IMG/VR virus record: IMGVR_UViG_3300043499_000190
Location: 1-41,840 of that record
Source of the DNA: a virus
Reading direction: 5' to 3' (one strand)
DNA: 41,840 nucleotides
A model generated the notes under the pieces. That model made no database searches and was not told the origin of the DNA. It saw nothing but the letters and a program-made list of their open reading frames with translations. The translations under genes were made by a program, and so were the position numbers. Positions 37,835 through 41,801 of this stretch are shown in pieces; the stretch's first letter is position 1, and every line of letters starts with the position of its first letter.

Positions 37835-38004
37835 GCGGGCGTCTGACAGCCTACGATATCCGGATGATGCTGCTTGAGCTGGATATCGCGGAGAAGCACC
37901 GGGAGAGGCCGGGGCTACACGCCTCCAGCATCAATTCGGTGCGTAACACGCTGCTGCGCGCGGCTCTCATGGATATCGAAGTGGAGACGGAGGAAAAGCC
38001 ATGA
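37831..38004 (+). CDS. Small helical protein (57 aa)
   Basis: 57 aa: MSGRLTAYDIRMMLLELDIAEKH, then SSINSVRNTLLRAALMDIEVETEEK. Predicted all-helical; no family recognised. Both ends overlap neighbours by ATGA, which supports it as a gene. Belongs to the rightward early cluster. Confidence 0.65.
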   Translation: MSGRLTAYDIRMMLLELDIAEKHRERPGLHASSINSVRNTLLRAALMDIEVETEEKP

Positions 38005-38294
38005 GCGAGGACATGGAGCGGCCGAGGGGCGTGGTCGAGGATGACCGTTCCCGCCGCCTGGGGGCGGCGCTGACGGCGTTGCGCTGGACCAGCGGCGATC
38101 TGGCGGAGGTGCTTGGCGTCGGCGTCAGCACCGCGCGGAGGTGGCGGGAAGGGCTGTATCCCGTGCCGGACGCGGTGATGACGTGGATCGAAGGGCTCGC
38201 TGGCGCGGTGGAAGCCGCGGGGCCGCCGCCAATACGGGTTCGGGTTGGGCATCGGCCCTCGAAGGAGATGGACGAATGGGCTGAATGGGGATGA
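38001..38294 (+). CDS. XRE-like helix-turn-helix protein (97 aa)
   Basis: 97 aa. LGAALTALRWTSGDLAEVLGVGVSTARRWREGLYPVPDAVMTWIEGLA is a lambda-repressor-type HTH (WTSGDLAEVLGV, STARRWREG). Often found near phage DNA-modification genes. It may regulate the divergent operons or the methyltransferase gene that starts in its last codons. Confidence 0.75.
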   Translation: MSEDMERPRGVVEDDRSRRLGAALTALRWTSGDLAEVLGVGVSTARRWREGLYPVPDAVMTWIEGLAGAVEAAGPPPIRVRVGHRPSKEMDEWAEWG

Positions 38295-39127
38295 CGGCCT
38301 ACTACAACGAGAACGATCCCGCCGCCGCCGCGTGGCTGCGGGAGCTGATCAAAGCGGGAGAGATCGCGGACGGCGCGGTCGATGACCGTGGAATCGAAGA
38401 GGTCACGGCGCATGACGTTCGGGGGTTCACGCAATGCCACTGGTTTGGGGGGATTGGAGCCTGGAGCCTCGCTCTGCGGCGCGGCGGCTGGGACGACGAC
38501 AGGCCGGTCTGGACCGCCAGCCTGCCCTGCCAGCCCTTCTCCGCCGCCGGGAAGCGAGAGGGAGTCGAGGACCGAAGACACCTCTGGCCCGTGTTCTTCG
38601 CGTTGTTGCTCGCCGGCAAGCCGCGCGCTGTCCCGGTCCTTGGCGAGCAGGTTAGCGGTCGAGGCGGCCTCGAGTGGTTCGACATTGTATCGGCTGACCT
38701 GGAAGGTGAGGGATACGCCGTCGGGGCGGTCGATACCTGCGCTGCGGGGTTCGGCGCGCCGCACCTCAGACAACGGCTTTACTGGCTCGCGGACGGGCTG
38801 GCCGACGCCGACGAAGGGAAACGCGGACGGATCGCAGATGGCGAAGGACGCGACCGCGACCGGCAGGCGGGCGGACGGGACGAAGGCGACGGTGAGCCTG
38901 AACCATGTCGCGACGCTCGCCGCCGGCCCGGCCCGGTTAACGGCTACTGGGCTGGATGTGACTGGGTATATTGTAGAGATGGACGCTGGCGGCCAGTTGA
39001 ACCCGGCGCATTCCCGTTGGCTACAGGGGCTCCCGCCAGAGTGGGGCTCCTGCGGGGTTACGGCAATTCTCTCTGTGTCCCGCAAGCGGAAGCCTTCGTC
39101 AGGGCGGCCATCGACGCCCTCTGGTGA
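38291..39127 (+). CDS. DNA cytosine C5 methyltransferase
   Basis: 278 aa from ATG 38291 (overlapping the previous stop as ATGA; an in-frame ATG at 38285 adds two residues). Motif I is HWFGGIGAW, motif IV SLPCQPFSAAG with catalytic Cys80, motif VI GEQV (the usual ENV has Gln instead of Asn), motif VIII APHLRQRLYW, and motifs IX-X end with RVGLLRGYGNSLCVPQ. The target-recognition part is short and Gly/Asp/Arg-rich. It probably shields phage DNA from restriction. The stretch also carries an open +1 frame (38382-39146) that resembles a conserved phage protein. Confidence 0.88.
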   Translation: MTAYYNENDPAAAAWLRELIKAGEIADGAVDDRGIEEVTAHDVRGFTQCHWFGGIGAWSLALRRGGWDDDRPVWTASLPCQPFSAAGKREGVEDRRHLWPVFFALLLAGKPRAVPVLGEQVSGRGGLEWFDIVSADLEGEGYAVGAVDTCAAGFGAPHLRQRLYWLADGLADADEGKRGRIADGEGRDRDRQAGGRDEGDGEPEPCRDARRRPGPVNGYWAGCDWVYCRDGRWRPVEPGAFPLATGAPARVGLLRGYGNSLCVPQAEAFVRAAIDALW

Positions 39128-39146
39128 GGCGGAGGAATGGTGGTAG
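38412..39146 (+). CDS. Overlapping frame inside the C5 methyltransferase gene, conserved-looking
   Basis: A +1-frame ORF open from 38382, with ATGs at 38382 and 38412, about 244 aa. It has phrases I remember from phage proteins annotated next to or in place of C5 methyltransferases: SRSLASRL, GSTLYRLTWKVRDTPSGR, SARRTSDN, GWPTPTKGNADGSQ and GGQLNPAHSRWLQGLPPEW. In the main frame the same bases encode motifs VIII-X. Both readings look protein-like. Either both are translated, or one is a constrained shadow; whether it is expressed is unknown. It may be a true overlapping gene, a frame-shifted product or a passive by-product. Confidence 0.4.
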   Translation: MTFGGSRNATGLGGLEPGASLCGAAAGTTTGRSGPPACPASPSPPPGSERESRTEDTSGPCSSRCCSPASRALSRSLASRLAVEAASSGSTLYRLTWKVRDTPSGRSIPALRGSARRTSDNGFTGSRTGWPTPTKGNADGSQMAKDATATGRRADGTKATVSLNHVATLAAGPARLTATGLDVTGYIVEMDAGGQLNPAHSRWLQGLPPEWGSCGVTAILSVSRKRKPSSGRPSTPSGEAEEWW

Positions 39147-39173
39147 CGAGAAGAAGAAACCGAGGGGGTGGCG

Positions 39174-41801
39174 ATGACGAAGAACAACGATGACAAAACA
39201 CGAGGACTGAACCTACGGAATATCCCCGGCCTGGCGGCGATGCTGGCCGTCGATCGCTGGTGTCTCTGGTACTGGCGCGTGCTGATCCGAAAGGACGGGA
39301 AGCGGGGGCGGACGAAAGTGCCGGTCATCCCCGGAACGGGCGTCGGGGTTCAGGTCAACGGACTGGTGGGGGTGGTCGGATATGACGCCGCCCGCGCGGC
39401 CGTGCTGGCCGAAAGCGCCGCCGGGGCTGGCTGGCGCATGAAAGACGATTTCGGGCGCGTGGCCATCGATATCGATCACTGTCGCGACCCTCGGACGGGG
39501 AAGATCGATGCGTGGGCGCTGGCGATCCTGGCGGCGGCGCCAGGAGCCTATTGGGAGGTGACGCCCTCGGGGACGGGGATACGGGTCATAGGGCGGCTGG
39601 GAGGCGCCCCAGAGGCGTTCCAGGGGCGCCTGCGGGTGAAGGCATGGGTAGATGGGTTGGAGGCGGCCAGCGCCGAGGAACGGGCCTGGTGGGGGGAAGG
39701 GATAAGGCCAGGGGCGGCGGTGGAGATATTCCACGCCTGCGCGCGGTTTTTGACGGTCACGGGGTGGAATGGGACCGGGGACTGCACGATCGATATATCG
39801 GCCGTCGTGGAATGGCTGATGGAACGGGCCGAGAAAGGGAGGACGATCGAGGGAAAGGCGAGCGTCGCCGCCGATGACGATGGGCTCTCTCTGCGGGGAC
39901 ATATCGAGGATGTCGTCGCGGCCCTCGGGGTTATCCCGAACGATGACCTCGGGTGGGATGACTGGTCGAAGATCGGAATGGCCGTCTGGGGCGCCACGGG
40001 CGGTAGCGAAGACGGATACGAGGCATTCAGGGAGTGGAGCGCGAAGAGCGGCAAGCACGACGACGCGGCCTGCCGCGAGCGGTGGGACCACTGGATGCGC
40101 TCGCCGCCCGACCGGCTCGGGAGCGGGACGTTGCTGTACGAGGCGAACAAGGCCGATCCGGCGTGGATAAGGCCAACCCGCCGGCCTTTTGGTGGTAGCG
40201 GCGGGGGCGTGACCCGCCGCCGCGTCAAGATCATCGCCGGCGAGCTGCACCATCTGGCATCGGAAGGCGAGGCGGCCATCATCGCCTCGGGCCTGCCCGT
40301 GTTTCAACGCGCCATGCTGGTGCGCCCCGCCATCATGGAAATGGACGCCGCCGATGGCGGCAAGACGCAGGTGACCGGCCTGCATCGTCTCGACGCGCCA
40401 GGGATGCTGGATCTGTTCTGCCAGACCGGCGAATGGATGAAATACAGCCGGATGCTCAAGAAAGACGTGAAGGCGGACCCGCCGGAAGTGGTGGCCAACA
40501 TCTTGTTGAAACGAGAAGGGGAATGGAACTTCCCTTATCTGCGCGGCATCATCGCGCACCCGACGATCCGACACGACGGAACACTGCTGGATCGAAACGG
40601 ATACGACCCGGCCAGCGGATATTATCTGGCGCTGCCGCCCGGCCTGAACATGCCCTCGATCAGCGAGAAGCCCTCGAAAGGCGAATGCGTCCGCGCGATG
40701 GAGGAACTGGAAGGGCTGCTGGTCGAGTTCCCGTTCATCGACGACGGCGGAGCGTCGAGATCCGTCGCGTTGTCGCTGCTCATCACGGCGGTGGTCCGCG
40801 CCGCCATGGATGTGGCGCCCATTCACGGCGCGACGGCGCCGATAAGGGGCAGCGGGAAATCGTTCCTCTACGATATCGCCGGAGCGATCGTGTACGGCGG
40901 CCGCTGCCCGGTCATATACGCCGGCAACAGTAGCGACGAACTGGAGAAGAAGCTGAACGGGCTGCTGCTACAGGGCGCGACACTGTTCAGCATCGATAAT
41001 CTCAATATCCCCCTTGAAGGGGATCTGATCTGTCAGATCGCCACTCAATCGGTGCTCGGCCTGCGGCGGCTGGGGCGATCGGACATGCACCAGACACCCA
41101 ACAGCGCGCTGGCCGGCGTGACCGGGAATAATCTGGTGGTCATGGAGGACGTGACGCGCCGCGTGGTCCTGGCATCGATGGACGCCAAAGTGGAGCGGCC
41201 GGAATATCGGAGATTCACGGCCAACCCCTTCAGGACGGTGCTGAAGGACCGAGGGAGATACATCGCCGCCATCCTGACGATCGTCAGAGGATACCTGACG
41301 GCGGGCGAGAAGAGCGCGCCCGATGCCCTCGCATCGTTCGATGACTACACCCGCTTCGTGCGCGGCCCCCTGGTGTGGCTGGGCATGGCCGACCCCGCCG
41401 CCACCATGGACAAGCTCCACGAAGCCGATCCCGTCCTGGTGGGCCTGCGGAGCGTCATGGCCGCCTGGGAAGCGGCGATCGGCCTGAACAAGCCAATGAC
41501 CGCCGCCGGAGCGATCGAAGCGGCGCAAAGCCAGGAGTTCGAAGACACTCCCGCCAATGAAACCGAGGTCGCCAAAAAGGCGAGGGAAGGACGGGATAAA
41601 GCCCTCCGCGACGCGAAGCACGCCCTTGGACTGGCGTTGTCCGGCATCAGCCGGAACGGGACGAAGGTCACGCCAAGGGAACTGGGGTTTTGGCTCGGCC
41701 GCCATGCCAACGGCATCGCCGGAGGGAAATGCTTCAAGGGGAAAGTGGATTCACACAGCAAGGTCACGCTGTGGACATTGGAGGGCGTGGATAAGGGGTA
41801 G
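39174..41801 (+). CDS. Primase-polymerase / helicase fusion
   Basis: 875 aa from ATG 39174 (GGGGG site 7 bases upstream; GTG 39168 is an alternative). The N-terminus is a primase-polymerase of the archaeo-eukaryotic type: D99-x-D101 in VAIDIDHC, SGTG at about 132-135 and AVEIFHACARFLTVTG near 182-198. A middle helical part (about 262-310, WDDWSKIGMAVWGATGG...ACRERWDHW) looks like a PriCT linker. The C-terminal ATPase has Walker A IRGSGKS at about 557-563 and Walker B ATLFSIDN. It should prime and unwind at phage origins. It is the last gene of the window and lies next to the junction inverted repeat. Confidence 0.88.
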   Translation: MTKNNDDKTRGLNLRNIPGLAAMLAVDRWCLWYWRVLIRKDGKRGRTKVPVIPGTGVGVQVNGLVGVVGYDAARAAVLAESAAGAGWRMKDDFGRVAIDIDHCRDPRTGKIDAWALAILAAAPGAYWEVTPSGTGIRVIGRLGGAPEAFQGRLRVKAWVDGLEAASAEERAWWGEGIRPGAAVEIFHACARFLTVTGWNGTGDCTIDISAVVEWLMERAEKGRTIEGKASVAADDDGLSLRGHIEDVVAALGVIPNDDLGWDDWSKIGMAVWGATGGSEDGYEAFREWSAKSGKHDDAACRERWDHWMRSPPDRLGSGTLLYEANKADPAWIRPTRRPFGGSGGGVTRRRVKIIAGELHHLASEGEAAIIASGLPVFQRAMLVRPAIMEMDAADGGKTQVTGLHRLDAPGMLDLFCQTGEWMKYSRMLKKDVKADPPEVVANILLKREGEWNFPYLRGIIAHPTIRHDGTLLDRNGYDPASGYYLALPPGLNMPSISEKPSKGECVRAMEELEGLLVEFPFIDDGGASRSVALSLLITAVVRAAMDVAPIHGATAPIRGSGKSFLYDIAGAIVYGGRCPVIYAGNSSDELEKKLNGLLLQGATLFSIDNLNIPLEGDLICQIATQSVLGLRRLGRSDMHQTPNSALAGVTGNNLVVMEDVTRRVVLASMDAKVERPEYRRFTANPFRTVLKDRGRYIAAILTIVRGYLTAGEKSAPDALASFDDYTRFVRGPLVWLGMADPAATMDKLHEADPVLVGLRSVMAAWEAAIGLNKPMTAAGAIEAAQSQEFEDTPANETEVAKKAREGRDKALRDAKHALGLALSGISRNGTKVTPRELGFWLGRHANGIAGGKCFKGKVDSHSKVTLWTLEGVDKG

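Follow-up and report, generated by a model that had tools for sequence, protein, structure and literature searches.

The methyltransferase locus

The window analysed in this study is the full 41,840-nucleotide stretch of the IMG/VR virus record IMGVR_UViG_3300043499_000190. Two genes overlap on its plus strand, here termed alpha and beta. Alpha, a C5 methyltransferase large subunit ORF of 280 aa at 38285..39127 (likely start at 38285 or 38291), was recognized by profile matches to PF00145 (4e-10) and phrog_363 (3e-68) and by its predicted structure, a C5 methyltransferase fold matching M.HhaI and M.HaeIII. Along this frame lie motif I (HWFGGIGAW, 38438..38464), motif IV with the catalytic PCQ (LPCQPFSAAG, 38522..38551), motif VI (VLGEQVSG, 38636..38659), motif VIII (GFGAPHLRQRLYWLAD, 38747..38794) and motif X (GYGNSLCVPQAEAFVRAAI, 39056..39112); the PCQPF of motif IV is invariant across the aligned alpha homologues, and the Glu of motif VI is also invariant. 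With motifs I, IV (PCQ), VI (Glu), VIII and X and the methyltransferase fold, alpha qualifies as a C5-cytosine enzyme of the PF00145 family, but it departs from that family in not carrying the recognition domain and motif IX on its own chain: the stretch between motifs VIII and IX is unconstrained in alpha and the IX-like element is found in beta. The alpha reading of the recognition region (38792..38926) contains no stops and appears to be an open, unconstrained linker, as judged from its substitution pattern and a pLDDT of 44-47, with residues 178-209 predicted to be disordered. A conserved alpha stretch before motif X (GYWAGCDWVYCRDGRWRPVEPGAFPLATGAPARVGLLR, 38942..39055) overlaps motif IX of beta, and both frames are constrained there.

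Beta is nested in the +1 frame at 38412..39146 (244 aa from the ATG at 38412, with an alternative ATG at 38382) and is supported by stop depletion, start conservation and codon-position substitutions. A Shine-Dalgarno site, GAGGT (38399..38403), is located 8 nt upstream of the ATG at 38412. The N-terminal domain, a helix and beta-hairpin (...GSTLYRLTWKVRDTPSGRSIPALRGSARRTS, 38622..38768), is dual-coded with alpha motifs VI-VIII, as indicated by base-level suppression of alpha wobble changes. It is followed by a single putative recognition module in this phage (GWPTPTKGNADGSQMAKDATATGRRADGTKATVSLNHVATLA, 38796..38921), identified by module clustering, and by motif IX (GGQLNPAHSRWLQGLPPEWGSCG, 38988..39056), which is strongly conserved in 115 loci and occurs in cis in single-chain enzymes. 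The C-terminal tail (39057..39143) is an unconstrained shadow of motif X, since the substitution pattern past motif X is that of alpha only. When beta was modelled alone, the prediction was poor overall (pLDDT 61), with a confident helix-hairpin at 78-125 (block-mean pLDDT up to 89) and low confidence in the remainder. These low-confidence parts would suit folding on a partner, which is no more than a possibility raised by the model and no proof.

The initial annotation, made from sequence alone, had described a +1 ORF at 38412-39146 over a C5 methyltransferase gene and phrases in it (TWKVRDTPSGR, GWPTPT and GGQLNPAHSRWLQGLPPEW) that recur in phage proteins. Both points held: the two frames are as described, and all 62 aligned beta homologues match phrog_1008 and phrog_31772, two families labelled DNA methyltransferase. 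The assignment of motifs VIII-X to the main frame held only in part, as motif IX is located in the +1 frame, the main frame carrying motifs I-VIII and X. Searches with tblastn found alpha in 424 phage records and the +1 protein in 209.

Directly downstream, a large ORF (39168-41801) reads like a primase/helicase replication protein. An antisense ORF on the minus strand (37967-39328) was considered as a further case of dual coding and rejected as a composition shadow, being broken in 130 of the 134 relatives; this 453-codon frame had been called a shadow in the initial annotation, and that claim held.

Stop codons in the two frames

Homologous loci were fetched mainly with a profile of the N-terminal half of alpha only, so as not to select for conservation in the +1 frame. 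This fetch yielded 80 loci from genomes limited to one per species, together with 80 viral contigs; a minority of loci was added from single-sequence searches, one of which used beta as the query and gave 16 loci. The combined set comprised 139 unique genes, 134 of them with the full C-terminal half. As the null for the +1 frame, synonymous alpha codons were permuted within each gene, and stops were counted from motif VIII to 28 codons before the alpha stop.

Between motifs VIII and X, 15 stops were found in the +1 frame in 20,005 codons across the 134 loci, compared with 175 ± 10 after permutation; the +2 frame contained 994 over the same span. No +1 stop occurred in 125 of the 134 loci, and in the other nine those inspected were mostly accounted for by HNH insertions, indels or truncation. 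The depletion extends upstream, with 4 stops over alpha codons 43-157 against 147 ± 10 permuted; over codons 1-36, +1 stops exceed the permuted number (164 compared with 115). When the beta protein was held fixed instead, alpha showed 0 stops against 427 ± 17 expected, a test that leaves out short-alpha genes by construction (only 5 of 139). Stops are thus depleted in both directions, and both frames are therefore kept open. Past motif X, +1 stops reappear in the relatives at codon +11.

Start of the nested gene

An internal ATG located between the last +1 stop and alpha codon 43 was present in 88 of 92 non-redundant genes, compared with 53 ± 4 after permutation; the remaining four have no ATG start for beta. 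Shine-Dalgarno matches upstream of beta were similarly enriched, whether at least 4 nt (73 of 92 loci, against 17 ± 4 permuted) or at least 5 bases (37 of 92, against 4 ± 2) were required. NAT codons, by which an ATG is created, make up 82% at alpha codon 34 and 74% at alpha codon 38, compared with 29% elsewhere. Beta is thus an independently initiated nested gene with its own conserved ATG and Shine-Dalgarno site, although its translation is inferred.

A programmed ribosomal frameshift, giving a fusion isoform of alpha (motifs I-VIII) with beta, was one of the options raised in the initial annotation. With neither frame interrupted across the region, a shift would yield a long fusion, and actinophages do show evolutionary frame switches. 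Against this, the internal ATG and the Shine-Dalgarno site are conserved far above permutation, constraint on beta begins well upstream of motif VIII where it overlaps the alpha motifs, and the fusion product would be without motif X, which stays in alpha, while alpha is kept open as far as motif X. Since beta itself possesses a conserved start and a Shine-Dalgarno site, no frameshift is needed, and this explanation is considered very unlikely.

Distribution of constraint along the gene

If beta is coding, changes are expected at alpha codon position 1, which is the wobble position of beta. Among independent pairs, the half of the gene bearing motifs I-VIII showed 0.20, 0.15 and 0.44 substitutions per site at alpha positions 1, 2 and 3, compared with 0.34, 0.15 and 0.09 in the recognition region between motifs VIII and IX and 0.20, 0.14 and 0.25 between motifs IX and X. 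The ratio of position 1 to position 3 in the recognition region was 3.65 (CI 3.0-4.4), supported by 48 of the 52 independent pairs as against 1. Between this phage and loci L022/L024, the recognition module carries 16, 4 and 2 changes at alpha positions 1, 2 and 3. Amino-acid identity over the recognition region is 83% for beta and about 58% for alpha.

At the level of single codons, alpha wobble is frozen exactly at conserved beta residues, as at P108 (CCT in 124 of 127), V116 (GTT in 125 of 127) and L132, which underlies a beta W (125 of 127). Many alpha sites within motif IX vary at position 1 while the P, W, L, M and G of beta are fixed. Constraint on beta ends at motif X, beyond which alpha behaves as a lone frame. 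From the substitution patterns and the per-codon map it follows that the gene is alpha-only at its start, dual over motifs VI-VIII, beta-only in the recognition region, dual over motif IX and alpha-only at motif X. The recognition region therefore evolves as beta protein, with alpha forming an open, unconstrained linker there.

A different placement has been published for a related design. M.EcoHK31I consists of two polypeptides, a large one with motifs I-VIII and X and a small one with motif IX, and its predicted recognition domain was assigned to the large subunit (PMC3404938). By that assignment alpha would hold the true recognition domain and beta motif IX only. From motif VIII to motif IX, however, alpha is not constrained as a protein, the changes there falling mostly at alpha position 1 and altering its amino acids, and the stretch is predicted to be disordered. 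A recognition domain in the large subunit is thus not supported here, the codon-position test pointing to beta, and the published placement is itself a prediction; this alternative is very doubtful.

The remaining possibility is that the +1 ORF is a mere shadow of a conserved main frame, spread through databases as mis-annotation. GC-rich DNA does yield long shadow ORFs, the antisense frame among them, and phrases such as WPTP and LADA share the same DNA. The synonymous-codon permutation and the substitution periodicity reject this, as do relatives of lower GC. In 23 non-redundant Paenibacillus-type relatives with a GC content of 41-60%, +1 stops before motif VIII numbered 0 against 33, and the recognition region gave 0.43, 0.16 and 0.12 (7-8 independent pairs); the dual signal over motifs IX-X was weaker in this group. 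The Streptococcus Javan124 and phi1207.3 enzymes, which served as canonical one-frame controls, have many +1 stops. A shadow is all but excluded.

Dual coding is real and stronger than the initial annotation had claimed. Of the three options it left standing (dual coding, a frameshifted isoform or the spread of a mis-annotation), the first was right; mis-annotation is widespread, but as a consequence of dual coding. Neither of the two outcomes named beforehand as refuting the idea occurred: stops did not break the +1 frame in relatives, and main-frame conservation did not explain that of the +1 frame, the reverse being true in the recognition region.

Mosaic modules with a probable role in recognition

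Between the phrases ALRASARRTS and PARLTA, beta consists mostly of units of 30-45 residues that start with GWPTPT..D and end near LA. A total of 298 units was counted in 105 loci, with 0-5 per locus. The same modules recur across loci at different positions and with different neighbours, and the module of this phage clusters with units in 9 loci at positions 1-4. The modules are thus mosaic and interchangeable between loci. Each has to remain stop-free in both frames, with only the beta reading selected as protein, because the modules lie under the path of alpha to motif X. That they choose the DNA target is very likely but inferred, no DNA specificity having been demonstrated.

Multispecific C5 methyltransferases of Bacillus phages are known to carry exchangeable recognition domains, and those of SPR, phi3T and rho11 similarly have several short, contiguous, exchangeable modules between motifs VIII and IX. 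The possession of several exchangeable modules of about 40 residues is a feature shared by the beta family, although this phage has only one. The modules of the Bacillus phage enzymes lie in the same frame and chain, whereas here they occupy the +1 frame and a second chain.

Other layouts amongst phages

In the mycobacteriophages ShiLan and WillSterrel and their relatives, LPTPxxxD modules homologous to those of beta are followed by a motif IX of the beta type (LxPxFxEWMMGWPxGW, more fully RLxPAFxEWMMGWPxGW) and then by motif X. The difference is that all of these lie in one frame and one polypeptide, with a truncated +1 remnant of the nested ORF before the in-frame modules. The C-terminal part of these single-chain enzymes matched phrog_1008 (2e-61) and the beta profile (hhalign probability 95.5%, E 1.6e-8). 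Beta is homologous to the C-terminal half of the single-chain methyltransferases; from the shared modules and motif IX and the profile matches, it therefore corresponds, out of frame, to the portion of a C5 methyltransferase that holds the recognition region and motif IX.

Truncated +1 beta remnants upstream of in-frame modules were observed in the mycobacteriophage loci L277, L280, L281 and L286, and may reflect a switch of frame during evolution by which beta became fused to alpha. In the Gordonia phages GordDuk1 (L284) and Jumbo (L285), alpha ends just past motif VIII and the +1 frame carries the modules, motif IX and motif X, an AquI-like overlapping split that is only partly annotated. 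A similarly nested gene homologous to beta occurs in Paenibacillus phage Sitara. The nested arrangement spans proteobacterial, Paenibacillus and actinobacterial phages.

Existing records annotate alpha only in N15 (L191), beta only in FoX4 (L274) and XFactor (L283), and both frames in K1H (L190), PhiXhv-28 and Sitara. The record notes that touch on the nested gene read 'g59 internal gene' (Sitara) and 'Mte8-like' (K1H). No earlier report of a nested phage methylase gene was found in the open-access literature searched, which is weak evidence, as subscription papers were outside its scope.

Beta could also be a genuine nested gene whose product is no subunit but does something else, acting for instance as an antirestriction or regulatory protein. 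There are no activity data to exclude this, and no match to beta was found in Pfam or NCBIfam, nor in the PDB either by sequence or by fold. Against it, the modules and motif IX occur in cis in single-chain methyltransferases, and alpha is without a conserved recognition region or a canonical motif IX. Furthermore, none of the 205 loci with a beta motif IX had beta separated from alpha, the exceptions being broken copies or regex misses; no stand-alone beta gene was seen in a beta-profile fetch, and M.EcoHK31I provides a two-subunit precedent. A separate function is thus regarded as unlikely.

A putative two-subunit methyltransferase

The preferred reading is that alpha and beta together form a two-subunit methyltransferase in which beta provides target recognition and motif IX. 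This is very likely (probability about 0.83), with translation, binding to alpha, DNA recognition and activity all inferred in the absence of protein-level data. The two subunits of a C5-cytosine methyltransferase of the phage would then share one stretch of DNA. Alpha, in the main frame, would supply the SAM-binding and catalytic motifs I-VIII together with motif X. Beta, initiated in the +1 frame from an internal ATG and preceded by a separate Shine-Dalgarno site, would supply the N-terminal helix-hairpin domain, one or more interchangeable recognition modules and motif IX. The two proteins may come together in trans as a single active enzyme whose DNA target is picked by beta, and the likely role would be self-modification of phage DNA against host restriction.

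The motif layout agrees with that of M.EcoHK31I. In M.EcoHK31I, a different reading frame within the gene of the large subunit encodes the small one, and beta, in the +1 frame with its own start, shares this nesting; M.EaeI is also a two-polypeptide C5 methyltransferase akin to M.EcoHK31I (YGGCCR). The two systems differ in the recognition domain, placed by publication in the large subunit there and by selection in beta here, and also in that the beta family often has several interchangeable modules and is carried by phages and prophages. M.AquI has its break inside the variable region, and its small chain holds motif IX as well as motif X (PMC3404938). Its two chains complement into one enzyme, as inferred for alpha and beta, but here motif X stays in alpha and the beta tail over it is unconstrained, so that the AquI-type arrangement is not met.

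The two-subunit design itself therefore has precedent; what is new is its breadth across phages, the map of selection in two frames and the mosaic of cassettes read out of frame. What passes for a single, common methylase gene in phages is in fact two genes, with the part inferred to determine specificity read in the other frame, and many annotations give only one of the two or take the linker as the recognition domain. The arrangement would explain why alpha cloned alone may give no activity, and M.EcoHK31I then looks like a single instance of a system widespread in phages. The family also offers a large body of natural sequences in which dual-frame evolution can be followed, along with recognition cassettes of interchangeable, though inferred, specificity. 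A bolder reading, towards which the evidence leans only slightly, is that a nested out-of-frame specificity subunit is shared by phages of several host phyla, its cassettes being shuffled under the need to be readable in two frames and moved among nested, split and single-chain layouts via frame switches.

Interrupted and rearranged copies

Broken copies were seen among loci L032, L111, L176, L151 and L066, with an in-frame alpha stop, indels that displace both frames in step, a deletion, and a copy cut short at what looks like an integration site. In L029, L078, L125 and L169, HNH endonuclease ORFs were found at about the same place inside motif IX of beta (after WLMGLP/YP), the HNH ORF lying in the +1 frame and alpha remaining open across the insert. 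These inserts may represent repeated homing into a dual-coded site. In L010 (2400-3810), an HNH-like insertion past motif VIII precedes a duplicate of the motif VIII region and a beta that starts anew.
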